Assembly (NCBI GenBank): GCA_029834535.1 | Contig: JAQMWT010000363.1 | Location: forward strand, 1-59,693 | Direction: 5' to 3' | Origin: Chrysophaeum taylorii | Lineage: Eukaryota; Sar; Pelagophyceae; Pelagomonadales; Pelagomonadaceae | DNA length: 59,693 nucleotides | Part shown: positions 1,447 to 30,979 of the stretch, piece after piece | How positions within the stretch are numbered: position 1 is the first letter of the stretch | Layout of the letters: every line of letters begins with the position of its first letter | The notes under the pieces: model-generated | Told to the model about the DNA's origin: nothing | Databases searched by the model: none | The model's input: only the letters and a program-made list of their open reading frames with translations | Program-made: the position numbers and the translations under genes

Positions 1447-1451
1447 CCTAC
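1447..1451. repeat. Target-site duplication CCTAC, left
   Basis: CCTAC directly precedes the left LTR, and the same five bases directly follow the right LTR at 11642-11646. A 5-bp duplication is typical of Ty3/gypsy integration and fixes the outer ends of element 1. Confidence 0.85.
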
Positions 1452-1726
1452 TGTGGCGTAAGGAGAATTTTAGGGCTACCTGGCGTGCCTTCGAATCCTG
1501 GCCACGCGACCACAAACAACTCCTGCGCCTGGTCCTCTCAACTTGAGGATCGGCTGTTGCTTTATGATCAAGGATAATCGAAATCAGAAATCAGGGTGAC
1601 ACATGTCACGGAAAAGGAAGATGATGTCATAGAAAACTCTGACATCATCGGAACGGAGTAGGGTGCCCCTGATAAGGGGGGCCCTAGAAGAGGGGTAAGC
1701 CTTAGGAGGCGGGAGTTGCCGCCACA
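1452..1726 (-). repeat. Element 1 3' LTR
   Basis: This LTR is 275 bp, starts TGTGGCGTAAGG and ends GCCGCCACA on the plus strand. Compared with the LTR at 11305-11641 it lacks about 62 bp after GAATCCTGG and has a CACATG where the other has CACGTG. The inverted repeat GATGATGTCA...TGACATCATC lies at 1620-1649. Confidence 0.92.
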
Positions 1727-1738
1727 GGACTCCCCTGG
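1727..1738 (-). other. Polypurine tract of element 1
   Basis: In the element's sense the sequence abutting the 3' LTR reads CCAGGGGAGTCC and then TGTGGCG. Element 2 has a similar G-rich tract in the same place (38330-38341). This is the expected primer site for plus-strand DNA synthesis. Confidence 0.7.
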
Positions 1739-1766
1739 TAAGAATTCGAGCTGCCCCAGCGAGGTG

Positions 1767-3335
1767 CTAGCGCGAGGAGCGCGGCTTCGCCTTACGAGCA
1801 TCTCGTGAACGAATCTTCTGGTAAACGCGGGTGATGATCGGTTCAGGAACTCGACCACTGCGTAAAGTAAACTTGGGGACCAACACGTCAATCTCGTGCG
1901 GAGCGAAATCCGTGACACAAGGAGTTGTGTTGGAGGAAATTCGGGACTTGTCGGTGAAACTTCGACCTTCAACGTCCTTGAATTCGGGCTTGAGCTTGCG
2001 GTGCGAAAGGTGAGAGGTCGGCTTGAAATAAGCGACATCATCGTTCGGACCCAAATCGAATAGAAATGTAGAGCGACACGATCATTTTGGTAATCGTAAG
2101 GCTCGTAAACTTCGGCAACATAAATCTTCTTGCGCCAATCAGAGCGCTTCCGGTCAGGAATCCGGAAACAACAAACTTACCGTGCTGATAATCATCACGG
2201 AAGGTTTCTTCGGGTTTGCGGATGGTTTGATCAACGATCGGAGGTACCATCACCGGCGTGATCTGACTTACATGAACACGCGTTCTTCGGGCGGAGAGTC
2301 GAGAGACTCAATCCTATAGGTGACCGGGGAGAGGCGTTCCTTGATAATAAACGGCCCTCGCCATTCCGGTCGAAGTTTGTTCTGAAGAAAAGGGATGTAG
2401 AGCAAAACGTGCGATCCTTCCTTGTATTCAACATCAACATGATCAGCATTGTAAGCCAATCGCTGTTTCTTCAAAGCTTTATCACGAGCCTCGCGGACGA
2501 TCTTTGTATATATTTCAATCGTTCGCGAGTCTCGGCGACTGCATCAGAGCGAGTCTTCGGCAACAATCGTGTATCAAAATCCATGAGCGTGTAGTCAGTC
2601 GGCAGCATCGGCTGACGGTTCAGGCGCAGCATAAAGGGAGAAATCTGCGTGCCTGGAATAAACTTGCGGTTGTAGCAAAACGCAATATAATGAGCAAAGT
2701 CAGGCCAATCCGTGATGTTCCGGCCTTGAAGGCAAGCACGGAGGAAGGCCTTGATAAATCGGTTGACACGCTCAGCCGGGTTCGACTGGGCATGATAAGG
2801 AATCGTAGTTTGGTATCGGTGTTAAAGAGGATGGCAAACTCGCGCATCAACTTGTTCAGAACTTTACCGTTGTCGGTACGAATCATCTGGGGCAAGTAGC
2901 CCTTTGAGGAGGATGTTAATGACAAAAGACTCGAGGACATACTCAGCAGTCTTATCGTTCAAAACATCCAGAATCAAGAAATGCGAGAACGGATCAAAAA
3001 ATACTATAAGATACGTCTCGGGACCAGGCTGGGCAAGCCCAAATAAATCCAGCAAAGAACAGCACCATCACCATCGTAGACGGGCTGCTGCAAGAGTCCA
3101 GCTCGTTTCGGCTCAGGCGTACGAGCTTTCTGACAAACTAGCATTCAGCAATGAAGACTCCAACTTCGTTCGACATGTGGGGCCACCAAAATCGTTCTTG
3201 GATAGCCTGGACGGTACTGTGACGTCCCATATGACCACCGTTAACCGGAGTGTCATGATAGAGTCGAATAATGCGTTTGCGCAACGTAGCAGGTGCAACA
3301 ATCATCGGTGCGAATCAGCAGAAATGCGGTAAAGC
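1767..3335 (-). pseudogene. Element 1 integrase, GPY/F module and C-terminal tail (frameshifted)
   Basis: Read on the minus strand across several frames. Zinc-binding N-terminus at about 3145-3262 (GGHMGRHSTVQAI followed by FWWPHMSNEVG). Catalytic core at 2864-3055 with DLFGLAQPGPETYLIVFFD and FSHFLILDVL. Second acidic motif RTDNG near 2880, then a NPAERVNRF motif near 2770. Choromoviral-type junction TDWPDFAHYIAFCYNRKFIP near 2690, then KLRPEWRGPFIIKER, the GPY/F module, at about 2340-2390. A tail of about 95 residues (1767-2054; HEIDVLVPKFTLRSG) follows and is conserved in element 2. Integrase would insert the cDNA. The frame changes around 2890-2930 and elsewhere show that this copy cannot make one intact integrase from a single frame. 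Confidence 0.8.
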
Positions 3336-4667
3336 ATCTTTAACGACTCGAATCGTTCGTTCGCTCGGGAACGTCGCGGCGTCTGACCTTGGGCCATTCG
3401 GTCGAATATCCTCGCACGTAGCATCAGATTCTGCTCACGTGCGATCTCAGCGAGCGTCATATTATCGGGTATCTTATCGATATAATCTTGTAAGCGGCTG
3501 CGTCCTTGAAGATCTGTGGCTCATCACGCGCACGGTTCTTCCGACGTTGTCTCGTAGCGTGAGACGTAGCCAATCATCGGATCCTTTTCAGGGTCTTCGT
3601 CTTCGTCTTCCGGCAGTTCGGTCGTAATAAACGACATTGAAGTGGCAGCCAGAGACGGAACTCCTCGGTCATCAACAGGTCGGGAAGCTCTTGGAACACT
3701 AAATACGCGTGGTTCAAAGGTTCTCCAAACTCGTCAGTCTCGATGACATGATCATCGGGTTGCGGGAGAGACAGTCAGGGATACTCGTTCCCGGTGACTT
3801 TTCCGGCTTGTAACAAAGTTCAGGGCCAAAATTGGGTATGCGCATCGCCCAACGAGCAAGCTGCCCAGACGAGTGCGTCGCCTTACGTAAACGTCAAATT
3901 TCGGTGATCGGTCTCCAAAACAGTCCGGTGCCCTTCGATGTAGGCTCGAAAGTGCTCTAGAAAAGTATAACTGCCAGCAGCTCTAGCCGACGGGGCTCAT
4001 AATTCCGCATCTCCTTCGGCACAGCTCGGCTCCAGTATTCAATTACTCGTTCTTCTCGAGTCACTCTTCCGGCATCGTCCTTGACTTCGACAATCTGGAA
4101 GAGATATGCTCCAAGTCCATCCTTGGAAATCGGATCGGATCTGAAAAGGCAGATCATAATCGGCGTGGTAGACTCCACGGAATCAACCAAAGCTTCAATA
4201 ATCGTATCCCAAGCTTTCTGACACTCGGGCGTCCACTCGAACTTTACACCTTCGAGGCATAATCGTCTCAACGGTTCCACAATCTTCGAGTAGCCCTTCA
4301 CATATCGCCGGCAAATTACTCATGCCGATGAAAGAGCGTATCTGGGTCTTCGGGAAGTATTCGGTAAAGTACCTGGAATCGGCATCTTCTGCAGTGCTTC
4401 CAGCGTCTTCGGATTCGGCTTCAAGCCTTCTGGGGTAGAAATGTGTCCCAGAAATTCTATATCATCCTTGAGAAGGTGGAACTTCGCGGTTCGACCGCTG
4501 TACCCTCTCTGTGCCAAATGACACATCACTTCGATCAAAACTTGTAAATGTCGATGAAGATCGTCGGATCCCATCATAATATCGTCAACAAACGCAACCA
4601 AGTCTTGATACATCCATTTCGAAGGTCGCTCGCCATTTGCTTGCAGAAAGAGCCCGGCCGTCTTCAC
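3336..4667 (-). pseudogene. Element 1 reverse transcriptase (second half) and RNase H (frameshifted)
   Basis: The frame at 4320-4667 continues the reverse transcriptase begun in the long upstream frame: it has the catalytic box FVDDIMMGSDD (about 4564-4608), then KFHLLKDDIEFLGHI and the thumb. The frame at 3957-4301 carries the RT-RNase H connection (YSKIVEPLRRLC, FEWTPECQKAWD) and the start of RNase H (SKDGLGAYLFQI; RRLELLAVI). The segment 3336-3956 is the RNase H end and the spacer before integrase, in mixed frames. Frame changes near 4670, 4310 and 3950 break the polyprotein. Confidence 0.82.
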
Positions 4668-4669
4668 AC

Positions 4670-7600
4670 CTAGGGTAATCGCAAGAAACTATGAGCGCCA
4701 AGTGGGCTAACCATCGTGACAGCGTCTTGCGCTGCCGGATCCAGACGAAGGTTGTGGTATCCCCATCTAATATCAATGCATGTCCGCCATCGTCTCATCG
4801 CGAGAAAGGCTAAAGCATCATCTTGTCGAATGTTTGGCCAACTGTCATTGACCAATTGATCGTTGAGCTGACGTAAGTCAACTGCAGCACGGAACGCGTT
4901 TGACGTTCCAATCTCAGCTCCTTTCTTCGGAAGCATCAACACAGGAAAGCCCCAAGGTGAGTTGGCCGGACGAATGACTCCATCCCGGCACCACTCGCTG
5001 ATCTGCTTGCGGAGACAATCGAGCTTCGCAGGCGTCAATCGGTAGGGCGTCATCTTTATCGGTCGCGGATTCGCGTCTTTGAATCGTAGAGACACAGGAG
5101 GCGAGTCCACAGGTCTCATAATCGGGTCGAAAAAGGCCCAAGAATATTGCACACAGTGACGGAGCATCAGTTTCGCCTCGTCATCTAAGTGCGGATTGTC
5201 AGGAATTCCCAGCTCCTGCACAACCTTGTCAACTTCTTCCTTCGTAGGAATTTTAACTTTCATTGCTTCGTTGTCCTTGACATGCTCAGGAGTCTGCGGC
5301 AGTGGTGCACCCTCGGCATCGCGCGGCGCATCTTTCCATGGCACATCGAACTTTTTCTTATATTTTAGTTTCACTTCCGGGTGGCTTTTGTTGATCCTCT
5401 CGCCTTTGACACGAACACTCGGTTCACTCTTAATCTTCGGTTCCCGATCTCGCTCAGGATCTGGAGGAACGTCTAAATTTGGTTGTCGGGGGGGCCCAGC
5501 AGAAGAAGCATGAGACGTCCCCGGCTCATCTGTTGCAGGCGGAATCAACGGTACCTCTGGAGGTTTCCATTTGGTGCGATCTTGGAGATCATCAGTCGAC
5601 ACCCATCTTACGACACGTGTGCGCGTGTTTAACAGCGGAACTTGTACGTGACGAAGGGTGGTTTCATCAATTTGTAAATAATAATCAAACGGTCGGTCTG
5701 CAGGACTCAACGCTGACGGCAAAGCTTCGCCGCTCAGGTGAAATTCCTTGGTCACAGAGTTGTGCAGATCGAGCATTAATAAGGCTATCGTGTCAGGTGG
5801 CACGACGGACGCCAAGTGTTTCAACGAGGTCGTCCTGGAGAAGCCGGCCCAATCAAAACCAGGGGGCATCGTCAGCAACTCCGAAGTCATTTCCAGATTC
5901 AGAGATCTGTAATCGGAACGGTGCGGTCCTACGCGAAGCGGGACACGCGTAACAGTATAAGCTGCGTCTGTCGCGGCTCGTGATGATCCTAAATTGTTCA
6001 TCTGAAGTAAATGTCGTTCGTCGGCGTAGCCAAGTGCTGCGGCGAACTTTTGCTGCATATTCTTGCAAGTCTTTGGAACTGCGCGCAAATGGAGCGGATG
6101 GCTGGAAACCAACAATCGCACGCGACAGCTCATCAAACGGGGAGTTATGTCGTAAAAATTGACGACGTATACGTACGGGTGCAAACGTGCAACGTAAGAA
6201 ATAATCGAAGCCTCCTGCTCTATCAACCACATGAAGAAACCAGCCATCTTGCATAATTTCATCGTCCAGTGGGTAGCGGTAACTCCTTTCCCAACATCTC
6301 TGGAGGTCAAGTTGCACAGAGCGGAGTGTACGCAGGGTGGCGACGCGACACACATCGACGACGACCATTCCGCGTAGGGTAAATAAGATTCGATCAACCG
6401 TAAGGTTGTAACATAGCGACCACACAATGTGTGCTGCACCACAGGAATATTCGGAAAGTTCTTGTGGTGGATCTGGTTGGCGGTGTCCGACGCATCGAGT
6501 GCTAGCACGACTCGAAACGACGTCCCACACGTTTCGTTGGCTCGTTGGAGACCCAAAGTACTGCCTCCGGCTCCACTGAACAGCATCACCACCTTGCGAT
6601 AAGTGATTGGAAGCCATTGAACCTTTTCATATCGGCGGCGGATCTCCGCTTCGGTGATCCCGCGGCATTTCTTTTCATCTTCTTCCGACCTTCGAGCGAA
6701 ATCGTCGCTGCCCTCAGGTCGTTTGAGGGTGGACTTGTTCGTCATAGCGGTCGTAGCGTCCTTTTGCACCGTGCTCAGCAGCATCGGCGGGGGAGATTCG
6801 TCGCATCGCGTCAAGTGACTAATGACGGAAACGGTGAAAGAAAGGTTCCCCTTGTCGTATCCTTCTTCACATTCTTTCGTAAGTTCGTTGATCGTAGAGA
6901 CGTTCAACTCATCCTCATACCTAACGATATCACCAATCGCAAGGATTTCGCCTTGCGTGACAACCGTCGGCACTTCTTCCGTGGCAGTAACCGCCACCCG
7001 AGCAGCGGACCGGTCGCGCTCTTCGCAAGAAGAACACATTCCTTCGACCACTCCCAACTGCTCGTTCTCAGCAAACGTAGCGACGAAAACCTGTCCTCTT
7101 TCCATAGGTTTCGACAAAATAACCGGTGGATTGTACGTTCGACCGGGCTCGATTTGAAGCGTGCGCGCAGCGTATGCCACTACTTCTCGCGCGCCTTCTC
7201 CCGGAGCTGGGGAGAATTTGGTCGTAGCATGTCCCCGCGTAGCCAAGGCTACCTTACGTTCCGGTGGCGGGCTTCGGAGATCTTTAATCGTGCTCAAACG
7301 AGCGTAAACTCGAGTCTTGACCAGGTCGAGACTCTGCCGAAAGGCATCGTGTTGATGATTGTAAATCGGTACGGTTATCGGATTTCGATCGTAACTAGAC
7401 CGAAAGGTCACGATTGGTGCATCGACTCGTTCATCCTTAACTTTAATCTTCTTGCGCCCGTAGACGACTTGGGTTCGACAAAAACAGATCCGATCATGGG
7501 GAAAATCCACGATGGCTCCTAAAACTCGTATATCGCGCCCTCCCAACAGGAACAGATAATTCGTATCGGCTACAATAGCAACAATGGGGGCAGCGAAGTC

Positions 7601-9487
7601 GTCGGCGAAAGCGACCCGAAGGGTGATCCAACGATGGATCGTCGTCGTATTCAACCCTGACCCGTACAGCTTGCGCTTAATCGGAAGTTCGCCTTCATCG
7701 AGAATCAACTGATCTTTGGTCAACTTTTTGACCATTTCTCGGCAAATATAAGAAACATCTGCCATTCCATCGACACCAATGGTCGTCGAGAATTTCGGTC
7801 CGTCACGATTCCTGTAGATGTGACAGGCTATAAACGTTAAAGTACCCGTATCTAAACAACTGAGGGTAATCAAATCATCTTCGATCGTCTTGCCATCTCG
7901 CGGCGTCAACGAAGTGTGAGCACATCGGGCTCTGAATCGCTCATCTCCGGGGTTGGGCATCGATACCGCGGCTTGAGCTTTCGTATTATCTGTTGTTGGC
8001 GTCTTCGCCATAATGCTCGCGGCAGCCTCTTTATCTGGCGGCTTCCGCTCTTCCTCCAAGACAATCTTCGAGGGAATAAACGCTGGTAGGGGATCCTGGT
8101 CTTCGTAGTCCTTGGAAGCAAACAACCCCTCCCATAAATCATTCATTTCGTCGTTCCAGAATGCATCTGTGAATTCATTCGTCGCCTGCTGATCTTCATC
8201 AGCATCGGCGATCGGTTCCGTGTCAGCTGCGGCTCTGAGTCTGCAGCTGCGCGGTTGTTCCGGTGGCTTCTTTAGTAAGAAATTCCGAGCTTTCGTCCAC
8301 CAATCCTGCAGGTTCCACGTCTGCTCGTCTTCGTCACACTTGAGAACGCTGCTAATCTTCTTCATAAATCTATCCTTTTCTTCCGGCGGCGTATCCGTGT
8401 CTCGATCCGTAGTAATCGAAACCGTTTCGGGGGGGTCCGCAGGAAAAGATGGCGTCGTCCCCGACGTCAACTCTGTCGTAAAATCGTCGTCTGCAATACT
8501 CGCGCTTGTCATCGTCTCGTCAGTCGAATGCGCGCACGAGCTATCACTGCAGAAATTCATGTCTGGCTCACAGCCAGTTCGGTCGCCATCGGTCGTCTCT
8601 GAAGGGTCCAAAGATAAGCCGATGGCATCGAGGGCTTCCTCATCAAAAATAAACGGTGGGTCGTCCGTGGACGACTTGTCAAATAACATTAACGCGGACA
8701 CTGGTTCAAAAAGTGTAGCTGCTTCATCTTCCGAATCTGAATCGCCTTCCCAGTATCGTGGAGCTTCAAGTTCCTCGCTCGAATCTTCGAGCTCATCGCT
8801 CGACATCTGCTCATAAATCTGTGCCAAAGACCGACGATTGGTCAGCACGTCGTTGGGTGGCTCGTCCATCGGTGGGCGAGCAAGATCTTCGAATGCGGCC
8901 GCGGCAAGGGCGTCGGCTGCGTCGTCGGTGCGGGTGTCCATGTTCGGGTACACCGTCACTCCTAATGGTAATTGTCGACCGCAAGGGGTCGTAAATGCGA
9001 GCGTTGCGCTCAAAAAACTCGAATTATATTGGTGTCGGCCTCCGTCGTATTCGTCGTCGCGCGATCGGCGTCGTCTGTGCCGGCGCGAACTTCGACTGGG
9101 GCTCTTGTTATCTTTGTCTCTCTCTGGCGTCAGTTCGGCAGGTTCTAGTACCTCTTGATCATCCCTGTAGGCGACTGGTGCTTCCAAGTCTATCCGAACT
9201 GGCTCAATCGTCTCGTCTATCGAAACATCTACGCCTTCGTCGTCTTTTTGCCAAAACTCCGACCAAACGTAAATTAAATCTCGGTTGGCCAATAAATCCG
9301 TGCCTCGGGGTCGGAATTGTACGTCTTTCCGCTCTGGCGGTTTCTTCCTCAGGAAACATTGAGCTCGCATCCTTATCGTCGGTACGCTCATCTTCCTATT
9401 ATCCATGCTGATCGTCCCATCCAAATTCGGTTCCGGGCGGCAGCTATACTCATCCCTCATAGTATGTTCGGGATCTTTCTTTATCAC
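4670..9487 (-). CDS. Element 1 Pol: linker, protease-like, DNA methyltransferase, RT fingers/palm
   Basis: An open frame of 1605 codons. Residues 1-60 end a first linker module (FLRKKPPERKDVQF). An Arg/Ser-rich stretch is at about 130-150, and a second linker module at about 200-430 repeats LTSGTTPS and FLLKKPPEQ. A retropepsin-like domain lies at about 560-660 (GVDGMADVSYI, then LLGGRDIRVLGAIVDF). The methyltransferase lies at about 962-1240: motif I MLFSGAGGSTLGLQRA, motif IV ASPPCVHSALCN with the catalytic Cys, a VIII-like TPRLMSCRVRLLV, and motif X HLASVVPPDT. A Pro-rich charged linker follows, then RT from about 1464 (VSLRFKDANPRPIKMTPYR) to motif A (CIDIRWGYHNLRL). The frame ends at a likely 1-bp deletion at about 4675; element 2 reads through there. 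A TAG at 9509-9511 separates it, in the same frame, from the upstream Gag frame. Confidence 0.88.
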   Translation of the reverse strand: MIKKDPEHTMRDEYSCRPEPNLDGTISMDNRKMSVPTIRMRAQCFLRKKPPERKDVQFRPRGTDLLANRDLIYVWSEFWQKDDEGVDVSIDETIEPVRIDLEAPVAYRDDQEVLEPAELTPERDKDNKSPSRSSRRHRRRRSRDDEYDGGRHQYNSSFLSATLAFTTPCGRQLPLGVTVYPNMDTRTDDAADALAAAAFEDLARPPMDEPPNDVLTNRRSLAQIYEQMSSDELEDSSEELEAPRYWEGDSDSEDEAATLFEPVSALMLFDKSSTDDPPFIFDEEALDAIGLSLDPSETTDGDRTGCEPDMNFCSDSSCAHSTDETMTSASIADDDFTTELTSGTTPSFPADPPETVSITTDRDTDTPPEEKDRFMKKISSVLKCDEDEQTWNLQDWWTKARNFLLKKPPEQPRSCRLRAAADTEPIADADEDQQATNEFTDAFWNDEMNDLWEGLFASKDYEDQDPLPAFIPSKIVLEEERKPPDKEAAASIMAKTPTTDNTKAQAAVSMPNPGDERFRARCAHTSLTPRDGKTIEDDLITLSCLDTGTLTFIACHIYRNRDGPKFSTTIGVDGMADVSYICREMVKKLTKDQLILDEGELPIKRKLYGSGLNTTTIHRWITLRVAFADDFAAPIVAIVADTNYLFLLGGRDIRVLGAIVDFPHDRICFCRTQVVYGRKKIKVKDERVDAPIVTFRSSYDRNPITVPIYNHQHDAFRQSLDLVKTRVYARLSTIKDLRSPPPERKVALATRGHATTKFSPAPGEGAREVVAYAARTLQIEPGRTYNPPVILSKPMERGQVFVATFAENEQLGVVEGMCSSCEERDRSAARVAVTATEEVPTVVTQGEILAIGDIVRYEDELNVSTINELTKECEEGYDKGNLSFTVSVISHLTRCDESPPPMLLSTVQKDATTAMTNKSTLKRPEGSDDFARRSEEDEKKCRGITEAEIRRRYEKVQWLPITYRKVVMLFSGAGGSTLGLQRANETCGTSFRVVLALDASDTANQIHHKNFPNIPVVQHTLCGRYVTTLRLIESYLPYAEWSSSMCVASPPCVHSALCNLTSRDVGKGVTATHWTMKLCKMAGFFMWLIEQEASIISYVARLHPYVYVVNFYDITPRLMSCRVRLLVSSHPLHLRAVPKTCKNMQQKFAAALGYADERHLLQMNNLGSSRAATDAAYTVTRVPLRVGPHRSDYRSLNLEMTSELLTMPPGFDWAGFSRTTSLKHLASVVPPDTIALLMLDLHNSVTKEFHLSGEALPSALSPADRPFDYYLQIDETTLRHVQVPLLNTRTRVVRWVSTDDLQDRTKWKPPEVPLIPPATDEPGTSHASSAGPPRQPNLDVPPDPERDREPKIKSEPSVRVKGERINKSHPEVKLKYKKKFDVPWKDAPRDAEGAPLPQTPEHVKDNEAMKVKIPTKEEVDKVVQELGIPDNPHLDDEAKLMLRHCVQYSWAFFDPIMRPVDSPPVSLRFKDANPRPIKMTPYRLTPAKLDCLRKQISEWCRDGVIRPANSPWGFPVLMLPKKGAEIGTSNAFRAAVDLRQLNDQLVNDSWPNIRQDDALAFLAMRRWRTCIDIRWGYHNLRLDPAAQDAVTMVSPLGAHSFLRLP
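5770..6600 (-). other. C5-cytosine DNA methyltransferase domain of element 1
   Basis: Signature motifs occur in the normal linear order. Motif I (FSGAGGSTLGLQRA) is at 6545-6590 and binds S-adenosylmethionine. ALDASDTANQIHHKNFPN follows as the motif II/III region. Motif IV (ASPPCVHSALCNLTSRD) is at about 6310-6350 and keeps the nucleophilic Cys after PP. WLIEQEASI occupies the place of the usual ENV motif VI. A charged VIII-like segment follows (CRVRLLV). TSELLTMPPGFDW resembles the motif IX end (GFP-like). VVPPDTIALL (about 5790-5818) resembles motif X, where cellular enzymes have GNxVPP. ENV to IEQ and the altered motif VIII are departures from canonical enzymes, so activity cannot be assumed. 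Confidence 0.85.
7500..7800 (-). other. Retropepsin-like domain of element 1 with altered active site
   Basis: TTIGVDGMADVSYICREM (7738-7793) fits the flow of a retropepsin active site (hydrophobic-D-T/S-G-A-x-x-S-F/Y-I), but the triplet is DGM, not DTG or DSG. About 75 residues later LFLLGGRDIRVLGAIVDF fits the conserved C-terminal ILG-D-x-L...G-x-x-IDF part of these proteases. Element 2 has EGM at the same place. Confidence 0.65.
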
Positions 9488-9508
9488 GTAACCATCATCA
9501 TATGCAGG

Positions 9509-10840
9509 CTAAAAATCTTTGAACTCTTCGTTCGTGAGTAATACGCCAGGGCTTTCACTGAGCTCCAAAGGCAGTTCATGCGTTATAAGATTCTTCATCT
9601 CTTCCGCTTTCGTATTCATTTTCTCGGCCGTTTCACTCGGCCTCTCATCCACTCCATCGCTTCGAATATCGGCAATCGCCTCGTCACTAAAAATGTCGGC
9701 ACACGAATTGTCTGCCATCGTCAAAGGGAATAAAACATCTGCAAAAACGTCTGCAGTCGGTTCGTCGGGGGGGGCTGCAAAAGAAGAAGGCGTCGTCCCC
9801 CACGTCATATCTGTCAAAAACTGGCCACCAAAGGGCACGTGACGTTCGATGGGTGTGTACTCAGGTGCGCGCTTATCATTCGAGGTAATCCTCTGCGACG
9901 CATCGTCGATCGATCGTGGAGGCGACGTGCCATCCACTTGAATGTTCGGAGGTAAACTCATAGCATCGAGCGTAGCAGCGGCGGGTCCCTTACTTTGGGC
10001 GTCATCGGCTGCACGGGGCTCGTAAATCGGATTCGCACATAACTCCGGCGCGTCGTCAAGACCGAGGGTTGTGTCAGCTGACGACAAATAATATCGTGCC
10101 ACCAACGGTGACACCGGGTTAGAAGCGATTGTCGGCTTCGACCCGTAGTTTAACGACGTTTCGGTCAAATTCTTCGATTCTGTGGGGATTTTAGTTTGGG
10201 TGAGCTCCTTCGACTTGGATTGCTCTTGATCGTAGTTTAACGACGTTTCGGTCATCTCGGACGACTCGTCGTCGTCGTCGCGCGGCTTCCTAACTTTCGC
10301 TCGCGTTCGCGTGGGCGGCGGTACCTCCGAAGGTCGGAATTCTCCCTCGAGACTGTTCGCTCGCCTCGGGCGATTCGGCATACGCAACTCATCTCTTTCA
10401 CGTGTCAACGCGCTTGCTTGATCTTGGAGGGCGTCTGCTCGAGCATTGGCCATACGCAGCTGCTCTCGCACTATTTTTATCTCCTTCCGGTGTAGCCGTT
10501 CTTTTCGTTCGTTCTCTTCCCCTATTTGTTTTAAAAGTCCTTCTTGCGCGCGTTCGTTCTCTTCGCGTAATGCCCGCAAGTGAGCCTCGTAGAACTCATT
10601 CATTTTCGTTGCATCCGGGGGTTCTGCACGCGTTGACGGAGCTGTCGATCGTCCTCCCGCCGGTCTCTCCGTGGGCTTGCCGTAGTTGTAGTTTAGCTCT
10701 TCTTCCTCGTCAACTTCTGTATCGTGCTCTTCTTCATCGCCATCATCATCATCATCATCATTCCGCTCGTTCGTCTCATCCTGACGGCTTGGCGGTTCTT
10801 CATATCGTAGCTGCTCGACGGCAGCATCATCGTCTTCCAT
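9509..10840 (-). CDS. Element 1 Gag-like N-terminal frame
   Basis: A 443-residue frame. It begins with an acidic stretch (about 20-50), then a predicted coiled coil at about 85-155 rich in Glu/Arg/Leu (YEAHLRALREENERAQEG), then basic and Ser/Thr-rich linkers with a near-duplicated TETSLNY motif, then LDAMSLPPN and WGTTPSSFAAPPDEP modules. No capsid fold or zinc knuckle is visible. Element 2 has those between the coiled coil and the linker, so they appear to be lost here. The frame ends with TAG at 9509 and the Pol frame continues in phase directly after it; element 2 has a sense Gln codon (CAA) at the aligned position. Confidence 0.7.
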   Translation of the reverse strand: MEDDDAAVEQLRYEEPPSRQDETNERNDDDDDDGDEEEHDTEVDEEEELNYNYGKPTERPAGGRSTAPSTRAEPPDATKMNEFYEAHLRALREENERAQEGLLKQIGEENERKERLHRKEIKIVREQLRMANARADALQDQASALTRERDELRMPNRPRRANSLEGEFRPSEVPPPTRTRAKVRKPRDDDDESSEMTETSLNYDQEQSKSKELTQTKIPTESKNLTETSLNYGSKPTIASNPVSPLVARYYLSSADTTLGLDDAPELCANPIYEPRAADDAQSKGPAAATLDAMSLPPNIQVDGTSPPRSIDDASQRITSNDKRAPEYTPIERHVPFGGQFLTDMTWGTTPSSFAAPPDEPTADVFADVLFPLTMADNSCADIFSDEAIADIRSDGVDERPSETAEKMNTKAEEMKNLITHELPLELSESPGVLLTNEEFKDF

Positions 10841-11280
10841 ATCGGCTCTGGCTCGTTCTAGTCGGCCGAGATCAGAGCGGGTCCAAAATGGTTGAGTCGT
10901 CGTCGTTCTCGTGCTCCTTCGGCTCTGGAACTTCTAATCGTCCACGACACGCGTAATATCGTCGTTGCGTGCGTCTTCCACCGACAAATCTATCCGTACG
11001 GTGGGCGGCAGAACTCGTCTCTGCCCGGCAAACAATGCCTTATCCGTGAGCTGCGATCTCACTCCGCTCGCCTGCGGCAGCGGTACCCGGGTTGCGCGTC
11101 GGTTAGCACCAAATCGCGCGTCGTCACTTCCGACGACTAACGTATCCGGCCGGGGAACTTTCCCACGGCAATGGTCCTTCTGGAATTCCTTGTCGGCGCG
11201 CTTGATCAGGGCGCGCACGGCTTGTCCGGACCGTGTAGAGAATGCAAGATGCACTAGTTCGTTGCAACCGATATAGTCGC
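10841..11280 (-). other. Element 1 leader between primer site and Gag
   Basis: About 440 bp separate the primer-binding site from the Gag start. A minus-strand frame at 10934-11254 (106 codons; LSVEDARNDDITRVVDD at its end) is open but has no recognised domain and no in-frame link to Gag. It may be untranslated leader and packaging region. Confidence 0.4.
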
Positions 11281-11302
11281 TCGAATCTCATATCCTCCAC
11301 CA
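11281..11302 (-). other. tRNA primer-binding site of element 1
   Basis: On the plus strand the sequence ending CTCATATCCTCCACCA stops two bases before the 5' LTR. It has the exact layout of a tRNA 3' end: T-loop TCGAAT, 5-base T-stem strand CTCAT, acceptor strand ATCCTCC, discriminator A, and CCA. The match covers 22 bases, longer than the usual 12-18. Element 2 keeps an 18-base version with the same two-base spacer. The tRNA isoacceptor (acceptor 5' strand GGAGGAT) was not identified. Confidence 0.7.
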
Positions 11303-11304
11303 CC

Positions 11305-11641
11305 TGTGGCGTAAGGAGAATTTTAGGGGCTACCTGGCGTGCCTTCGAATCCTGGCTCGCCGATCGCGTCCGTGCCTTTGGAGGGATCACTGGACGAGGA
11401 TGGCCGTTCTCCCGCTTCGCGACCACAAACAACTCCTGCGCCTGGTCCTCTCAACTTGAGGATCGGCTGTTGCTTTATGATCAAGGATAATCGAAAATCA
11501 GAAATCAGGGTGACACGTGTCACGGAAAAGGAAGATGATGTCATAGAAAACTCTGACATCATCGGAACGGAGTAGGGTGCCCCTGATAAGGGGGGGCCCT
11601 AGAAGAGGGGTAAGCCTTAGGAGGCGGGATTTGCCGCCACA
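11305..11641 (-). repeat. Element 1 5' LTR
   Basis: This LTR is 337 bp and is the longer, probably complete form. It has a perfect 14-bp palindrome GTGACACGTGTCAC (11510-11523) around a CACGTG box, and a perfect 10-bp inverted repeat GATGATGTCA/TGACATCATC (11534-11563). In the element's sense a TGATCATAAAGC stretch downstream of both could serve as a TATA-like site. The palindromes look like binding sites for dimeric bZIP or bHLH factors. Confidence 0.92.
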
Positions 11642-11646
11642 CCTAC
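11642..11646. repeat. Target-site duplication CCTAC, right
   Basis: CCTAC follows the right LTR and matches 1447-1451. Confidence 0.85.
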
Positions 11647-12262
11647 AACGCGTGGGCTTTTTCCTTTTTTTGCGTGAGGGGACGAAAGGATGCCGACTTC
11701 ACTATGGGGACTAGTTCCATCGCGACGATCTCGCGGCGTGGCGACACATACTGCTTGAGTGCAAATGAACATAGCTCAGCGATCCGTTGAGTATGTCTTA
11801 GTACAAACTGAAACATAGTTAACGGCTCGTACGAACTTTCTTATCCGACCCTGCAAGTTTTGGTTATGGGCCCTTACAGCGCTCGAGGTGGGCCCTTACA
11901 GCGCTCGAGGTGGATCGCGCTCCACCTCGAGCGCTGTAAGGGCCCATAACCAAAAGGTGCGGGTAGGAATGCCGGTCCTGGTGTGTGCGAGTGCCCGGGG
12001 CTATATATACCCCTGTGTATCTATCAGCACCAAGAGACCCGCGAAACTCGATGGTCTTGCCCCCGAAGCCCAGTGCCCCAAGACGTCTCCGCTGCCTAAA
12101 GCTCGCTAATCGGGACATTTTCTAGGTCTCCAGGTGCGGATCGACGCCTTTTGAGGCGTACTCGAAAGTGGTCAAGCGGCGTTGGTGTGGCGGTCGATCT
12201 GCAGTTGCGGGAATAAAACCGGGTTTATGCTCAAACGCGCTTGTAGAAAACTCGTGAGTATA
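11647..12262. other. Intergenic: palindrome and copy D of the TATA repeat
   Basis: No gene is seen. At 11868-11911 a 22-bp unit GGGCCCTTACAGCGCTCGAG(GT) is repeated twice in tandem, and 11917-11946 holds its inverted complement, giving a near-perfect hairpin with a 6-base loop. It runs straight into copy D of the dispersed TATA repeat (11951-12017). The last 240 bp are probably the 3' flank of the next gene. Confidence 0.6.
11868..12017 (+). repeat. Hairpin plus TATA-bearing dispersed repeat, copy D
   Basis: The arms are GGGCCCTTACAGCGCTCGAG and its inverse, with CACCTCGAGCGCTGTAAGGG leading into CCATAACCAAAAGGTGCGGG and then the same core as copies A and B, ending CTATATATACCCCTGTG. Copies on both sides of element 1 show that the retrotransposon inserted into a pre-existing repeat cluster. 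Confidence 0.7.
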
Positions 12263-18097: not shown

Positions 18098-18982
18098 ATG
18101 AACGTGGCTTGCGGCGACCTGATCACGGCGTCGTCCGAGGGCTGGATGCGCGGGCACGGAACCGTAGTGGCCAACGGGGAGCTGGTGTCGTGCGTCGCTG
18201 GAAAGGTCGAGCGCGTCGACAAGCTAATGCGCGTCCGCGGGGTAAACGGACGATATGTCGGGGAAGTTGGAGACCTGGTCGTGGGTCGCGTCCTCGAGGT
18301 CGGGCCCAAGGCCTGGCGCGTCGAGATCGGGGGCTGTCGGCGCGCGACCCTCGCGCTGTCGTCGGTGAACCTGCCCGACGACGAGCAACGGATCCGGACA
18401 CGTGAGGACGCGCTCTCGATGCGCGACCTCTTGGACGTCGGGAACGTCGTCTGCGCGGAGGTCCAGGCCGTGCGCCAGGACGGGACCGTCCAGCTCCACA
18501 CGCGTTCGAACAGGTACGGTCGCCTCGCGAATGGACACCTCGTCACCGTGCCGGCGGGCCTCGTCAGGAGGTTGCCGTCGCACTTCGTCCGATACGACGA
18601 CGACTTGGACGTCGAAGTGGCCGTCGGAAACAACGGATGGATCTGGGTCCAGCGCGCCATCCCGATGACGTGGCACGAGGAGCTCTCTGCCGACACGGGC
18701 GGCGGCTCGTCGGGCGCCGATGCCCTCCTGACGGCGGAAGCCTGGAAAACCCTAAGAGCGCGCCACGCCGCGAGGCCCCTCGACCGCGACGACGACAGGG
18801 TCGACCGTGTGCGAGCGGCCATAGTGGTCCTGGGGCTTCGCGGGGCCGCAGTGACGGCCGACACGATCGAGCACGTCTACCGCGACGCCCTGGCCTGGGG
18901 ACTGACGCCCCCCCAGATGTCGACCCTCAAACACAGCCACCGCCTTGTCCGGGCCCTGCTTTCCAAGAAGAGAAAACGCTGA
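18098..18982 (+). CDS. RRP4: Exosome complex component Rrp4 (EXOSC2)
   Basis: 294 residues and intronless, the usual length. Rrp4 is an S1/KH cap subunit of the RNA exosome, which processes and degrades RNA 3' to 5' in nucleus and cytoplasm. The N-terminal part has the family signature RGHGTVVANGELVSCVAGKV (about 18-38), then GRYVGEVGDLVVGRVLEV (about 51-68) opening the S1 domain. LALSSVNLPDDEQRIRTRED and VQLHTRSNRYGRL follow. The KH region carries VGNNGWIWVQ (about 176-185), the characteristic GNNG-x-IW of Rrp4. The end is basic (LLSKKRKR). The start ATG follows GGTAAGGGTAAG and fits the family N-terminus. Confidence 0.95.
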   Translation: MNVACGDLITASSEGWMRGHGTVVANGELVSCVAGKVERVDKLMRVRGVNGRYVGEVGDLVVGRVLEVGPKAWRVEIGGCRRATLALSSVNLPDDEQRIRTREDALSMRDLLDVGNVVCAEVQAVRQDGTVQLHTRSNRYGRLANGHLVTVPAGLVRRLPSHFVRYDDDLDVEVAVGNNGWIWVQRAIPMTWHEELSADTGGGSSGADALLTAEAWKTLRARHAARPLDRDDDRVDRVRAAIVVLGLRGAAVTADTIEHVYRDALAWGLTPPQMSTLKHSHRLVRALLSKKRKR

Positions 18983-19105
18983 GCAGCATCATTATTAATC
19001 GTGCTTTTCTTCTTCTTTTTCTCGCTTCTGGGGGTAGCAGCTTTTCGTCGATCGATATAGGTTTGTTCCCACCCCCCGATCATTTAGTTATTATCTTTCT
19101 TAACT
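18983..19105. other. 3' flank of RRP4
   Basis: This short AT-rich flank has T-rich runs (CTTCTTCTTTTTCTC) and no gene; it probably contains the RRP4 polyadenylation region. Confidence 0.4.
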
Positions 19106-20091
19106 ACTAATCGACAGATGTTTGTCTCTTTGTTTGTTTGTCTGTCTGTCCCTCGATTTAGGGTAAGGATCAGGTAGGAGCGAGAGCCAGACAGTGATCC
19201 TCCAAGCCGTATACGGCGACCTCGCAGACTATTTCCACGACCCGCGGCGGCTCTTTCAGCGCGCCATTCTCACGCCCCGTCGAAACGATGTTGTCGATGC
19301 TGACAACGCGCGCATGACCGCGGCCTTTTTTTCCCGGAGACGAGGCGTCGGAGTTCTTTTCGGCTGACTAGGCTGGGTCGGAAGACGACGCCTCGCTCTT
19401 TATAGTCGAGTTTTCAACTCCCTGACAACCAACGGCATGCTGACTTTGATCGCGAGCTTAAAGTCTTCGCAACCTCGACCCGTCGCACGGCCTCTGCAAC
19501 GGCACCGGATACATGATCGATCGCGTCGTGTCACCGAGGCTCCTCGAACCTGTATCCCTTAAGGTCCGCCTACGCCAAACGATCAACAAGAGCCAGGGCC
19601 AGACGCCCCGCGAGGTCGGCGTCCTCTTGCCCAAGCCCGTCTTCTGTCACGTCCAGCTCTACGTGGCTCTCTGTCAATCGGCAACCCCGAGGATATCCTC
19701 TTCTGGGTCGACGACTCCACCCTACCCAAACGTGCTGCGCAATACCGATAAGCCCCCTTTCCGGTGTCTACACGCGCACTATAGGTGAACTTACTGGGAC
19801 CACGTGAACTTACTGGGGTTTGAGATTGGGATTAGGTGAGCTGAGTGACCAGGTGAACTTACTGGGGCCAGATGAACTTACTGGGGGTTTTAGAGTGAAC
19901 GCAAAGCTTAGCGGCGTGTGCGGATCGAAGCAGCTTAGATTGGCGGGGGTGAGAGCGACGAGCTCAAAGGAGAGTGGGGTGAGTGGGTGTGGGTTTACGC
20001 CGACCCTGAACTTAGTCTAAAGAGATTGGGTTTACGCCAAACTTACTGGGGTTAGAGATTGGGACTAGGTGAACTTACTGGCCTGCACTTG
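19106..20091 (+). mobile_element. PIF1-like helicase remnant with tandem tail repeats (Helitron-like), copy 1
   Basis: The unit begins ACTACTAATCGACAGATG, passes CCCTCGATTTAGGGTAAGG and contains broken C-terminal parts of a PIF1-type helicase: LADYFHDPRRLFQRAILTP near 19215-19275, and INKSQGQTPREVGVLLPKP at about 19585-19640 followed by HVQLYVALC, the final helicase motif. From 19788 the tail holds repeats of GTGAACTTACTGGG and ends GGCCTGCACTTG. Inverted and direct copies lie at 57950-58935 and 59046-59693 and share the same boundaries. PIF1-type helicases with these motifs are typical of Helitrons, but no Rep domain or CTRR end is seen, so the family is uncertain. Confidence 0.7.
19788..20079 (+). 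repeat. GTGAACTTACTGGG tail repeats, left
   Basis: At least four full and several partial copies of GTGAACTTACTGGG are interspersed with GATTGGGATTAGGTGA spacers and a 100-bp unique middle (GCTTAGCGGCGTGTGCGG). The arrangement is repeated in reverse at 57961-58303. Confidence 0.75.
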
Positions 20092-20197
20092 TTATTTCTT
20101 ACCCTCGAGTCTCAACGTGTCGATCGATACAACAATAATTACCCGCTTCAACAAAACGACGCCGCATCGTGGTCGTGGCCCTTGTGAGGGGTGGTGC

Positions 20198-21331
20198 ATG
20201 AGTGTCGGCTCTCGGCAGGCCTCAGTAGCGTCGTCGTGGCTGCGGAAGCGGTCCAAGCAGCAGCAGCAGCAGCAGCAGCAGGAGTCGGGTGAGATCGAGG
20301 TCAAGGTCGGGAAGCGTCGATCGATGAGCACGAACGGCCACGCGACGATGAAGATTGGGGGGCAGGAAGTCCACGCCTTCAACGACGGAGACTTTTCCCG
20401 CGTCCGGGGGCTCCACGGGCTCGAGGGGACAGAATTTTTGTCATCGATAAGTTTCGACGAGATGGAGGCGGGCGGGGGCAAGGGCGGGATGATGATGGCC
20501 TTCACCGAGGACAAGCAGTACATCGTCAAGGAGCTGAACGGCGCCGACCACGGGAGCTTGCTGCGGATCGCGAGAGAATACGCCGATCACGTGTTGTCCT
20601 CCGAAGGGAGCCTGATCGCGCGGGTGTTCGCCCACTTCGAGCACGCCGGCCATAATTACATGGTGATGAACAACTGGATGCCGCCGCCGAGGATCGACGC
20701 GATAGATACGACCAAGCTCCGGTCCCTCAACTTGAGCACCAACTATTCGCAGTACGATTTGAAGGGCTGCGCCGACGACAAGACCCTTAAAAAAATGGGC
20801 GGCAAGATCCCGGCGGTGCACAAGCGCATCTTCAACGTACCCCTATGGTGCGGCCACGCCTTCTGGACGCCCGAACGAACGAAGTACTACGAGGGTAAAC
20901 TCCACGCGCGCCAGGTCAGGTTCCTCGTCTCGCCCTCGGTCCACAAGGAAATCACCTCAAAAATCGACCGCGACGTCAAGTTTCTCCAGCGATGGTCCCT
21001 CATGGACTACAGCCTCGTCGTATCCTACCACGTCCTCCCTCGCTCGCCCGGATCTAACCTCATCCTCGACAAGGTCTACCGCGCGACCTCGGACCACGGC
21101 GAGCAGCCCTACATCGCCCACAAAGACAACCAGACCTTCATCTGCTACGTCGGCATCATCGACTTCCTTCAGGACTGGACCACCGCGAAAATCATCGCCA
21201 ACGTTATTAAAGTCGCCGAGCGAAACAAGGCAACTATTCCCCCCAACCCCTACGGCGACCGCTTCGCCAAGTTCGTCGCCCACAAGTTCGATCCCACCTG
21301 TGAGGACGGCGACGAACCGCCGGTCAACTGA
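20198..21331 (+). CDS. Phosphatidylinositol phosphate kinase (PIPK catalytic domain)
   Basis: 377 residues from the ATG at 20198, chosen because the region upstream belongs to the helicase repeat tail; an ATG at 20324 (MSTNGHATMK) is an alternative. PIP kinases phosphorylate phosphatidylinositol monophosphates to PI(4,5)P2 at membranes. Seen: a poly-Gln run near residue 23; GKGGMMMAFTEDKQYIVKEL, equivalent to the nucleotide-binding glycine loop and catalytic Lys; YMVMNNW at the hinge; STNYSQYDLKGC; SLMDYSLVV with the catalytic DYSL; and YVGIIDFLQDWTTAKI with the IID metal-binding motif. There are no MORN repeats or other added domains, so this is a minimal kinase. Type I versus II cannot be fixed by eye. 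Confidence 0.93.
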   Translation: MSVGSRQASVASSWLRKRSKQQQQQQQQESGEIEVKVGKRRSMSTNGHATMKIGGQEVHAFNDGDFSRVRGLHGLEGTEFLSSISFDEMEAGGGKGGMMMAFTEDKQYIVKELNGADHGSLLRIAREYADHVLSSEGSLIARVFAHFEHAGHNYMVMNNWMPPPRIDAIDTTKLRSLNLSTNYSQYDLKGCADDKTLKKMGGKIPAVHKRIFNVPLWCGHAFWTPERTKYYEGKLHARQVRFLVSPSVHKEITSKIDRDVKFLQRWSLMDYSLVVSYHVLPRSPGSNLILDKVYRATSDHGEQPYIAHKDNQTFICYVGIIDFLQDWTTAKIIANVIKVAERNKATIPPNPYGDRFAKFVAHKFDPTCEDGDEPPVN

Positions 21332-22003
21332 CACACCACACTTTCGATCGAGACCGACAACCAGGCGACGGTTTTTGACCTTGAACCTGCATCCTAGGAA
21401 GAAAGAATTCAAGAGTCACCGGCGCCTCTCCTGTTGTTGTTGTTGTTGTTGTTGTAAGACACCCTGCTCCTTCCCTTCGACAGGAACGGCGACTCCACAA
21501 CCAACGCAATGCTCCTCCTGTGGTGCTCTTTTCCCTGGCAGCCGGCAGACACAAGCTGCTGCTGTCGTTCTGGTTGTTGCTGCATATTGACAATAATAAA
21601 CAACAGACTCCCGTTCCATCCAATTGAGTATAGACGGGGCCGACCGGCCTCTGGGTATATCATCTTCTAATATGGAGCTCGTCCTCCTGCCCTTCTTCCA
21701 CGATTCGAGGAGTCGTCGTCTGGCAGTTCGCAAGCATCGCCGGTGGCCGAGGTTCGGTGGAAAGAAACTCCGGGATCGATCTAATCTACCGAGATCTCGT
21801 CGTTCGTCGTCGAGACCACGCATGGTCCTCGACCCCGAGGGATTCGAAGACAAGACAACCCCACCGACTCTATACTTAATCTTACCCGGAGGGAGGAATG
21901 CCACCGACGACCAAGTCCCATCCTCCCCTTCCTCCGTTTTGCTCGACGAGAACACCCCCGCGCGCCTAATCCAAACTTTATTATGATGTCGTCGTCGTCG
22001 TCG
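21332..22003. other. Convergent intergenic region with (TTG)n microsatellite
   Basis: This is the 3' flank shared by the PIP kinase and the convergent sulfotransferase-like gene. It has a (TTG)8 tract at about 21432-21457 and a (GTC)n tract at about 21987-22004. No gene is seen. Confidence 0.5.
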
Positions 22004-23224
22004 TCACGGGGTGACCCCGCGGAGCTTATTGGTTCGCTTTGTCCCCGACTTAAAGCCAGCAGCAAGGGGTGCGTTGGCGCTGCTGGATGCACCGCGGCGT
22101 CGCTTTGATTGTGATCTCTCGGGTTGCTGCGGCCTGGCGCGGGGGGCGCCAACGTGATTGTCTAGAGGGGTGCGGTGGATCGTGGTCGGCTTCTTTATCA
22201 ACGGCCGAATGGGCCTGGAGTGGTTCCTACTTTGCTGCCGTTCCCGCTGTCGCTGTTTTCTTTCTTCCTTGAGCGCGACGGTTGCTTTGTCGCTCTTGGG
22301 GGGCTTGACGAGGGTGGTGGCCTTGAGGTATTTCGAGTTGGTCGCAAACGTGACGTTGGGAACATAGTCCGAGGCGATGTTGAGCGAGGCGTAGAGATCC
22401 TGGATGTAAGGGTCCTTGAGAAGCATGAGGGTTTCGAGGGAGACAATCACGCGCTGGCGCGGCTCGAGGATCTTCATCGCCTCGCGTAGGATGGCGGCCG
22501 CGCGCCTGTTTTCGGCATCGTTGGCCAAGACAGCTCGGTAGCCACAGTGGTGGGCGAGCTTGGCTACCGCCTGGATGGGAGGATCGCGGACGACGAAGAG
22601 CGCCGTCACGTCGCGACCTTGCGCCTCGTGCCAGAGCACGTGGCTCGAGACGTTTACCAAAAATCTCGTCGGAAAAACGAACCGGGGATCGAAGACGTCG
22701 ACGCGGTCGAGCGTCGGCAGGTTGGCCCCGCACATGCCGCCCCCCCATGGCAGAGAGATGTGCTGGACCTCCGTGTCGGCGTTGAGAATGCTCAAATGCG
22801 TTCCGGACCATCGGCCGTTTGGCGAGACGCCCGCCGCCTCGGCGATCATTCTGGAAACAAACTTGGTGCCGCTGTCCTCGAGTCCGAAGATACTCAGGAG
22901 GCGTTTGGGGGGTGCGAGCGCGGGGACCACCGGCGGCGTCACGGGCTGGGCCTGCTGGAGTCGGAACACCCACGGCGGACCCCCCGTTGCCGCCGTCGAT
23001 TCGTTTCCGAGCTGGGAAAAAAAACCAATGTGTTTATCGCTCGGAAACAGCTTGGGGGGGGAGCGGGAATTTGTGACGTTCTTGGACCGCGCCACCCGCG
23101 GGTTGTACCACGTTGCTACTGTCGAGTTCTTTCTCCTGTCGCGGCGGATGGTGCGCGCGCTGAGGAAGCTCGATGTCACGACACCCGCCATGAATAACAT
23201 GGCCGCCACCGACGAGAGTCGCAT
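22004..23224 (-). CDS. Sulfotransferase-like type II membrane protein
   Basis: 406 residues from the ATG at 23224. A single signal-anchor segment at about 5-22 (VAAMLFMAGVVTSSFLSA) is followed by basic residues and N-glycosylation sites, the layout of Golgi enzymes. LLSIFGLEDSGTKFVSRMI (about 109-127) looks like the 5'-phosphosulfate loop of PAPS-dependent sulfotransferases, and TALFVVRDPPIQAVAKL (about 207-223) resembles the 3'-phosphate loop, which has an RDP core. The C-terminal 90 residues are basic and low-complexity. A small intron near codons 60-70 (poly-T and poly-C tracts at 23025-23060) is possible but not needed. Glycan sulfation is inferred; a related nucleotide-binding family is possible. 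Confidence 0.6.
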   Translation of the reverse strand: MRLSSVAAMLFMAGVVTSSFLSARTIRRDRRKNSTVATWYNPRVARSKNVTNSRSPPKLFPSDKHIGFFSQLGNESTAATGGPPWVFRLQQAQPVTPPVVPALAPPKRLLSIFGLEDSGTKFVSRMIAEAAGVSPNGRWSGTHLSILNADTEVQHISLPWGGGMCGANLPTLDRVDVFDPRFVFPTRFLVNVSSHVLWHEAQGRDVTALFVVRDPPIQAVAKLAHHCGYRAVLANDAENRRAAAILREAMKILEPRQRVIVSLETLMLLKDPYIQDLYASLNIASDYVPNVTFATNSKYLKATTLVKPPKSDKATVALKEERKQRQRERQQSRNHSRPIRPLIKKPTTIHRTPLDNHVGAPRARPQQPERSQSKRRRGASSSANAPLAAGFKSGTKRTNKLRGVTP

Positions 23225-25689: not shown

Positions 25690-25748
25690 GATCCCTGTGC
25701 TGCTGACACAACAACCCTACACATACTTGAAGTAGTTCATACAACTTG
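25690..25748. promoter_or_regulatory. Very short divergent promoter
   Basis: Only 59 bp separate the ATG codons of the PDZ gene and the 5-oxoprolinase gene. Both 5' UTRs and core promoters must fit here or overlap the opposite coding sequence, so a shared bidirectional promoter is likely. It contains CCCTACACATACTTGAAG and no obvious TATA box. Confidence 0.55.
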
Positions 25749-29711: not shown

Positions 29712-29868
29712 CTTTGTCTCGTCGGTGTGCGGACGGACTACTGCCACTTTTTGTTTGCTCGCGCCTCGCTCCTTGCTTGTTTTTGTGTCCCTGCTGCTTC
29801 CTTCTGATCAACGCACATCCTAAGACGAAGAAGAAGAAGAAGAAGAAGGCTACTACATCCATATTCCA

Positions 29869-30960: not shown

Positions 30961-30979
30961 CGTCGTCGTGAATATCAAA

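Follow-up and report, generated by a model that had tools for sequence, protein, structure and literature searches.

A Gypsy-order long terminal repeat retrotransposon with a C5-methyltransferase-like domain between protease and reverse transcriptase, and a Copia-type carrier in the same algal genome

The retrotransposon in the window

The window analysed here is the whole of contig JAQMWT010000363.1 (59,693 nucleotides; C363), part of a 70.8-Mb genome assembly of 697 contigs, and it holds a complete insertion of a long terminal repeat (LTR) retrotransposon, element 1, whose polyprotein contains a domain resembling cytosine-C5 DNA methyltransferases (DNMTs) (Table 1). An earlier reading of the letters alone, the original prediction, had placed a retropepsin-like domain, a methyltransferase and a gypsy-type reverse transcriptase (RT) in one minus-strand frame. 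The frame of 1605 aa exists, with the three regions in that order; the claim for the RT holds for its N-terminal part, whereas the rest of the RT lies in other frames. Because the FVDD box and the remaining Pol sit in those other frames, the window copy is defective. The first polyprotein part, Gag-like by its position, matches no Pfam family at its cut-off. The stretch that we take to be retropepsin-like is likewise unrecognised by Pfam, and DGMA stands in it in place of DTGA.

The full order of domains is seen in intact relatives of the element. Contig C5 has two places with a single open Gag-Pol frame, of 3063 and 3067 aa; in the longer one (L051) Pfam recognises RVT_1 at residues 2001-2165, RT_RNaseH at 2260-2372, H2C2 at 2556-2614 and the integrase core rve at 2632-2725, and a DNA_methylase match at 1446-1501 scores 18.9 bits, below the Pfam cut-off of 22. 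Of the features of Ty3/Gypsy elements, direct TG...CA LTRs and a short target-site duplication (TSD) are present in element 1, and RVT_1, RNase H and then rve in L051. Family A, as we call these elements, is a Ty3/Gypsy-order LTR retrotransposon with Gag-like, protease-like, DNMT-like, RT, RNase H and integrase parts in one polyprotein. The LTRs, the TSD and the Gypsy order of L051 support an LTR retrotransposon in which the DNMT-like domain is an integral part between protease and RT.

Table 1. Retroelement features of the window, with the basis of each assignment.
Feature	Position	Strand	Basis or remark
Element 1 (subfamily A1), complete LTR retrotransposon insertion	1452-11641	minus	LTR pair and target duplication
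Target-site duplication CCTAC (plus strand; GTAGG on minus), one side	1447-1451	.	direct reading
Target-site duplication CCTAC, other side	11642-11646	.	direct reading
5' LTR of element 1, TGTGGCG...CGCCACA	11305-11641	minus	pairwise LTR comparison
3' LTR of element 1	1452-1726	minus	pairwise LTR comparison
Primer-binding-site-like TGGTGGAGGATATGAGA, 2 bases past the 5' LTR and shared with element 2	11286-11302	minus	direct reading; putative primer-binding site
Polypurine tract-like AGGGGAG ahead of the 3' LTR	1730-1736	minus	direct reading; putative tract
Gag-like first polyprotein part, by position; acidic, coiled-coil-like by eye	9509-10840	minus	continuous with Pol in L051
Pol frame of the window copy, 1605 aa, stops inside RT	4670-9487	minus	open reading frame listing
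Retropepsin-like region (VDGMADVSYI from 7774 ... LLGGRDIRVLGAIVDF)	7397-7921	minus	by eye
C5-methyltransferase-like domain, 313 aa, between retropepsin-like stretch and RT	5702-6640	minus	profile comparisons
Motif I LFSGAGG (S-adenosylmethionine binding)	6563-6583	minus	profile comparison
Motif IV SPPCV, catalytic Cys at domain residue 103	6329-6343	minus	PC kept
Motif VI-like IEQ (typical enzymes ENV)	6215-6223	minus	by eye, MAFFT; reads EQE
Motif VIII-like SCRVR (typical enzymes QxRxR)	6116-6130	minus	RxR kept
Motif IX/X-like ELLTMPPGF ... KHLASVVPPDTIA	5783-5881	minus	MAFFT against bacterial motifs IX/X; not significant alone
N-terminal RT part, same frame as the DNMT-like domain	4673-5050	minus	RVT_1 recognised in L051, not in the window frame
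Remaining RT (including FVDD box), RNase H and integrase, several broken frames	1864-4688	minus	domains recognised in L051
Element 2, older related element, broken frames	38068-48364	minus	LTRs 38068-38333 and 48089-48364

The two LTRs of element 1 are 98.2% alike across a 224-base core, with 4 differences at 276 compared sites (Kimura two-parameter distance, K2P, 0.015). About 59 bases of its 5' LTR are absent from its 3' LTR, and template switching between copies is a possible source of them. Hairpin-like repeats flank the element on both sides outside its LTRs (788-1354 and 11844-12017), so element 1 has inserted in surroundings with further short repeats. In element 2 the LTRs are at a K2P distance of 0.14 over 266 sites, the 3' LTR is without the CGCCACA end, and remnants of the DNMT lie at 43059-43151, 42432-43007 and 42217-42546.

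Resemblance to DNMTs and spread through the genome

The domain was compared with a DNMT profile built from seven bacterial enzymes (L074-L080) and two DNMTs from the same genome, L001 and L002. This profile gave 33.2 bits against the window domain, at residues 15-104 only, where the best of 1000 shuffled sequences reached 2.8 bits, and 38.8 bits against the domain of a copy from a second subfamily, A2, with a best shuffle of 9.9. The match claimed in the original prediction therefore withstands profile searching, no shuffle in 1000 reaching the score of the window domain, though it stays under the Pfam cut-off. A comparison by hhalign with the bacterial DNMTs and L001 returned a probability of 96.9% with E 1.6e-10, the 49 matched columns covering residues 15-69. 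Among PDB sequence matches, those at E<0.1 were DNMT2 chains only and were weak (E 0.035-0.063), and no DNMT3 chain was found at E<=1. To judge from these comparisons, the sequence support for a DNMT is strong in motifs I to IV and weak beyond. With no more than about 90 alignable residues, the domain has diverged too far for placement in a DNMT tree.

Four residues of motifs IV, VI and VIII are kept from copy to copy. The catalytic cysteine was found in 47 of 47 stop-free copies and in all 22 covered copies of a set selected by RT (the top 25 of 150 listed by RT rank; 17 of the 25 cover the spacer, 23 the DNMT and 23 the linker), and Glu 141 of motif VI together with both arginines of motif VIII in 47 of 47 and 23 of 23, respectively. 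The stop-free set excludes L050 because of a stop, L039 and L072 with their 936 bases, and L037, which is at the locus of L051.

The DNMT-like domain has 127 scored matches in the genome, the window copy included, these being the best-scored 127 of 1019 first-look candidates; by hand count 102 of the 127 are without an in-frame stop, and they form two groups, about 86-100% and about 80-83% identical. A few contigs seem to be present twice, the match rows of C10 and C297 and those of C6 and C268 pairing up, and matches are therefore not exactly equal to copies. When seven RT copies without a listed DNMT match were picked from 150 listed, all seven were found to contain DNMT sequence still, mostly truncated or frame-broken. 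The domain has multiplied genome-wide as a conserved part of Pol. One of the seven RT copies, L092 (C55:341700-344176), is more diverged: it is 98.5% A1-like just before the RT and has only 57% identity over spacer, DNMT and linker, and it either represents another subfamily of the DNMT or has arisen by recombination.

An assembly chimera was considered and rejected, since 126 of the 127 listed matches are on other contigs, and at the level of the assembly the original prediction passes this check. That an assembly error or contamination fused an unrelated methyltransferase to the retrotransposon has a practically negligible probability: the seemingly duplicated contigs are all that can be said for it, whereas an intact copy has one frame running across both domains and the insertion is bounded by a TSD.

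Selection on the domain and its possible activity

Selection was judged from one copy of each subfamily, L051 for A1 and L073 for A2. Their DNMT-like domains are 81.5% identical over 313 of 313 residues, with a nonsynonymous distance (dN) of 0.119 and a synonymous distance (dS) of 2.17, and the other parts of the polyprotein range from 95.3% identity in the RT, 86.2% in RNase H and 82.4% in the integrase to 76.0% in the linker, 71.0% in the protease-like part and 57.0% in the spacer. Synonymous sites are thus near saturation while the domain has kept an integrase-like identity and the spacer has fallen to 57%, so that the domain has been kept by selection; in this one A1-A2 pair it is constrained about as strictly as the integrase. 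All 19 fetched A2 copies, which were picked as full-length matches, align across the 313 aa with no gaps.

The explanation that we consider probable is a joint one, namely a Gypsy-order element whose conserved Pol domain methylates its complementary DNA (cDNA) and was captured once, long ago. The protease would release the DNMT-like domain inside the particle, and the released domain would bind S-adenosylmethionine and methylate cytosines of the new cDNA or, less likely, of RNA. The copy would then arrive already marked, which may protect it against nucleases or sensors of the host, or may set its chromatin state after integration. A single uptake from a cellular or viral C5-methyltransferase would be the origin of the domain, a Copia-type element (below) having taken another independently. 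A precedent for activity is given by the SymbioDIRS-Dnmt3 domains, the only ones for which the available part of de Mendoza et al. 2018 (PMC5890265) describes CG methylation, de novo, in yeast.

Several results weigh against this explanation, and they concern selection, the sequence and model of the domain, the missing methylation footprint and the closest published system, as the domain of KnitGypsy-Dnmt3 showed no activity in yeast (PMC5890265), itself an inconclusive result. With regard to selection, pairwise dN/dS of the DNMT was 0.169 among 28 A1 copies and 0.127 among 19 A2 copies of the stop-free set, and 0.18 in a set of 29 A1 copies without L037 (covering the protease-like part in 25, spacer in 25, DNMT in 29, linker in 28 and RT in 27). 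These low ratios were dropped as sole proof of constraint, being partly a matter of ascertainment because the copies were picked by DNMT similarity. In the 25 RT-selected copies, the ratio of nonsynonymous to synonymous proportions (pN/pS) of the DNMT was 0.375 (bootstrap 0.27-0.52), against 0.50 for the spacer and 0.45 for the linker; these overlapping values mean that within the young subfamily A1 the DNMT is not clearly more constrained than its flanks, and the argument for constraint rests on the A1-A2 comparison. Such ratios, together with the many near-identical copies, are what would be expected if a DNMT captured by chance were hitch-hiking and being lost at the neutral rate, the copies being merely young. 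We hold this to be highly improbable, since at near-saturated synonymous sites the domain has diverged so much less than the adjacent spacer and still aligns over its whole length, and the A2 copies, though picked as full-length, are gap-free without exception.

With regard to sequence, the Pfam DNA_methylase match of the window copy covers motif I only and scores 18.4 bits (E 0.0015) against the cut-off of 22. The score of residues 76-313 alone was reached by 48 of 1000 shuffles (36 of 1000 for the A2 copy), and that of residues 176-313 alone by 41 (23 for the A2 copy). Motifs I (LFSGAGG) and IV (SPPCV) stand in the order given in the original prediction, but the motif X that it placed after them departs from the usual form, reading LASVVPP(D) instead of GNxVPP, and is not significant alone; motif VI has EQE instead of ENV. 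Because motif VI is without ENV and motif X without GN, we call the domain DNMT-like. A full-database search for relatives found none at E<=0.01 among 2188 candidates, a second one found a single weak DNMT (P0001, E 0.79) among 5688, and a search of viral contigs found none. AlphaFold models of the domain had a predicted local distance difference test score (pLDDT) of 40 and 45. Foldseek on these low-confidence models ranked plant MET1 top and also listed DNMT2 and, lower down, DNMT3 in the first search, and ranked human DNMT2 top, with MET1 and DNMT1 also listed, in the second, for which the model alignment had included DNMTs; in both they stood among other Rossmann folds, and the rankings are weak support for a DNMT. 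The altered motifs VI and X, the confinement of significant similarity to motifs I to IV and the missing CpG footprint (below) would all suit a catalytically dead or altered S-adenosylmethionine-binding fold, retained as a structural or DNA- or RNA-binding part of Pol. We regard such a fold as unlikely, because the motif IV cysteine, the motif VI glutamate and both motif VIII arginines are invariant in every covered copy and the domain is as alike between subfamilies as the integrase.

With regard to the footprint, the observed/expected ratio of CpG was 1.31 for element 1 and 1.23 for element 2; L051 had 1.33, L073 including its flanks 1.20 and the Copia-type L052 1.04, and four further parts of the window gave 1.30-1.44. 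Elements of family A show no CpG depletion. C-to-T changes per base, taken from 29 A1 copies (L021-L050 except L037), were 0.0103 at CpG, 0.0086 at CpA, 0.0092 at CpC and 0.0157 at CpT, with no excess of CpG transitions, so that family A bears no trace of methylated CpG lost by deamination. The highest context was CpT, where 111 of 392 sites were hit, and the others had 83 of 428 (CpA), 79 of 385 (CpC) and 136 of 615 (CpG). The original prediction had suggested that the element methylates its own DNA; as both traces were looked for and are absent, we put self-methylation forward as something the element may do. Methylation of other sites or of RNA, a transient methylation of cDNA and efficient repair would each be compatible with the missing CpG decay.

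The absence of a CpG footprint in DNA would also be expected if the domain methylates RNA, either that of the element or its transfer RNA primer, in the manner of DNMT2. DNMT2 chains are its sole, weak neighbours in PDB and DNMT2 heads the second fold search, itself on a low-confidence model. Such weak matches have little phylogenetic weight, however, MET1 heads the first fold search, the DNMT2-like protein of the host is just 26% identical over 88 aa, and the missing decay equally fits other methylation sites or efficient repair. An RNA target is, in our judgement, quite improbable.

A second carrier, the host and known systems

The genome has 57 DNA_methylase matches, two of which look like host genes. 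L001 (360 aa) contains the stretch SPPCQPHTRQ, by which we presume it to be DNMT2-like. L002 is DNMT5-like, as its DNMT lies in a frame of 2086 aa that continues into an SNF2 domain (L085). Of the remaining 55 matches, the 18 that were fetched (L003-L020) fall without exception into a single additional family, B. Its layout was read from L052 (C96:59500-69400, the L017 locus extended), with a separate first frame that matches no Pfam family, DGGAS (retropepsin-like, by eye), DNMT, rve (17.2 bits, short of the 32.6 required) and RVT_2, which is Copia order; the LTRs lie outside the 9.9 kb fetched. The DNMT of L052 is over the Pfam cut-off with 32.1 bits and has AIIAGGLH, LPCQHLS and VENVPP, with IX/X-like stretches about 300 residues on. 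A 217-bp perfect tandem duplication precedes the first frame of L052. Querying the genome with the family B DNMT gave 152 matches, in part fragments of the same copy, and pN/pS over motifs I-VIII was 0.24 in 18 copies, all found via DNMT matches (synonymous differences 0.42; L017 left out as the same locus as L052). None of 7382 database candidates was a relative of this DNMT, and its single PDB match (E 0.32) is outside the DNMT motifs.

Both families have the DNMT after a retropepsin-like stretch in Pol and share the host, whereas family B has rve before RVT_2, a DNMT above the Pfam cut-off and, in L052, PCQ and ENV. Compared with each other by hhalign, the two DNMTs show no detectable similarity (probability 0.9%), and each resembles the profile of bacterial DNMTs plus L001 (96.9% for family A, 66% for family B). 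As they are mutually dissimilar and each resembles DNMTs, the simplest reading of the sequences is two independent captures, one by a Gypsy and one by a Copia element.

The host was judged from its light-harvesting proteins, for which the genome has 84 matches. The best PDB matches of L084 are fucoxanthin chlorophyll a/c proteins (E 2e-76), and L081 has no such match at E 1e-30. We infer a fucoxanthin-bearing alga, most likely an ochrophyte, less likely a haptophyte, and neither a charophyte nor a dinoflagellate. The pelagophyte probe Pela01 (PMC5446981) and a universal 18S V4 primer had 0 matches in the genome, so that 18S is probably absent from the assembly and the Pela01 outcome is uninformative.

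Elsewhere in the window, ordinary host genes occupy 18098-35493 (RRP4 exosome subunit, PIP5K, PDZ, fused A and B hydantoinase/oxoprolinase, NAP, RING and DENN). A long inverted repeat (19144-19991 and 58075-58942), 89-97% complementary in three blocks and with arms about 38-39 kb apart, may be another mobile element present twice in opposite orientation. At 50526-52483 there are open frames that encode Pro-Ser-Thr repeats (PSxxPS/T), the DNA showing 80-bp repeats; they match no Pfam family.

Retrotransposons with a DNMT are known from dinoflagellates and a charophyte, as the original prediction had stated: the available part of PMC5890265 describes SymbioLINE-Dnmt, SymbioDIRS-Dnmt3 and KnitGypsy-Dnmt3, mentions Symbiodinium Copia elements without a DNMT and cites two earlier reports of a DNMT-RT link. 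Such retrotransposons are reported from stramenopiles too by Morozov et al. 2019 (PMC6338049), where, in the part available, adenine and cytosine enzymes are lumped. Among the matches listed from the open-licence literature, a Copia element with a DNMT did not appear, nor did an ochrophyte Gypsy element with a C5-DNMT. The closest system is KnitGypsy-Dnmt3 of Klebsormidium nitens, which as described in that part of PMC5890265 has, like family A, a Gypsy-type composition and a C5-methyltransferase in the Pol frame; absence of introns, several copies and evidence of purifying selection are likewise listed as shared. Its enzyme belongs to the Dnmt3 family, whereas family A has no Dnmt3 among its PDB matches at E<=1, a distinction by description and not by sequence, and its repeats have a DIRS-like arrangement, whereas element 1 has ordinary direct LTRs and a 5-bp TSD. 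SymbioDIRS-Dnmt3 and SymbioLINE-Dnmt of Symbiodinium, from the same source, are DNMT-bearing retroelements of high copy number like family A, but the former is a tyrosine-recombinase DIRS element and the latter a long interspersed element (LINE), which is CG-depleted, unlike family A, an LTR element with an rve integrase. Sola1-1_Ec32 of Ectocarpus, in the available part of PMC12477816, is likewise a mobile element of a stramenopile and bears a gene for a DNA methyltransferase, but it is a DNA transposon with an enzyme of N4-cytosine or N6-adenine type and a ParB-like domain.

The arrangement itself was thus already known, and what differs here is the probable ochrophyte host, an enzyme lineage not assignable to Dnmt3, the ordinary LTRs and the Copia carrier. 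Of what the original prediction proposed, the different host group is supported, as judged above; a separate capture is likely but unproven, the domain being too diverged for a tree. A bolder proposal is that Gypsy and Copia elements of one fucoxanthin alga each independently took a different DNMT into the same place after the protease and both spread to at least 100 places, the enzyme in the window representing a new, deeply diverged DNMT class; this we put forward tentatively, as possible rather than probable. Retroelements that bear the silencing enzyme of their own hosts are a paradox, with published cases in dinoflagellates and one charophyte. One more host lineage and two unrelated carriers in two LTR superfamilies of one genome argue for repeated selection and not for a curiosity, and the compact 70.8-Mb genome is a setting in which self-methylation can be examined. 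If the bolder proposal is true, a host-specific barrier against unmethylated cDNA, restriction-like or sensing, would be selecting self-methylating retroelements.

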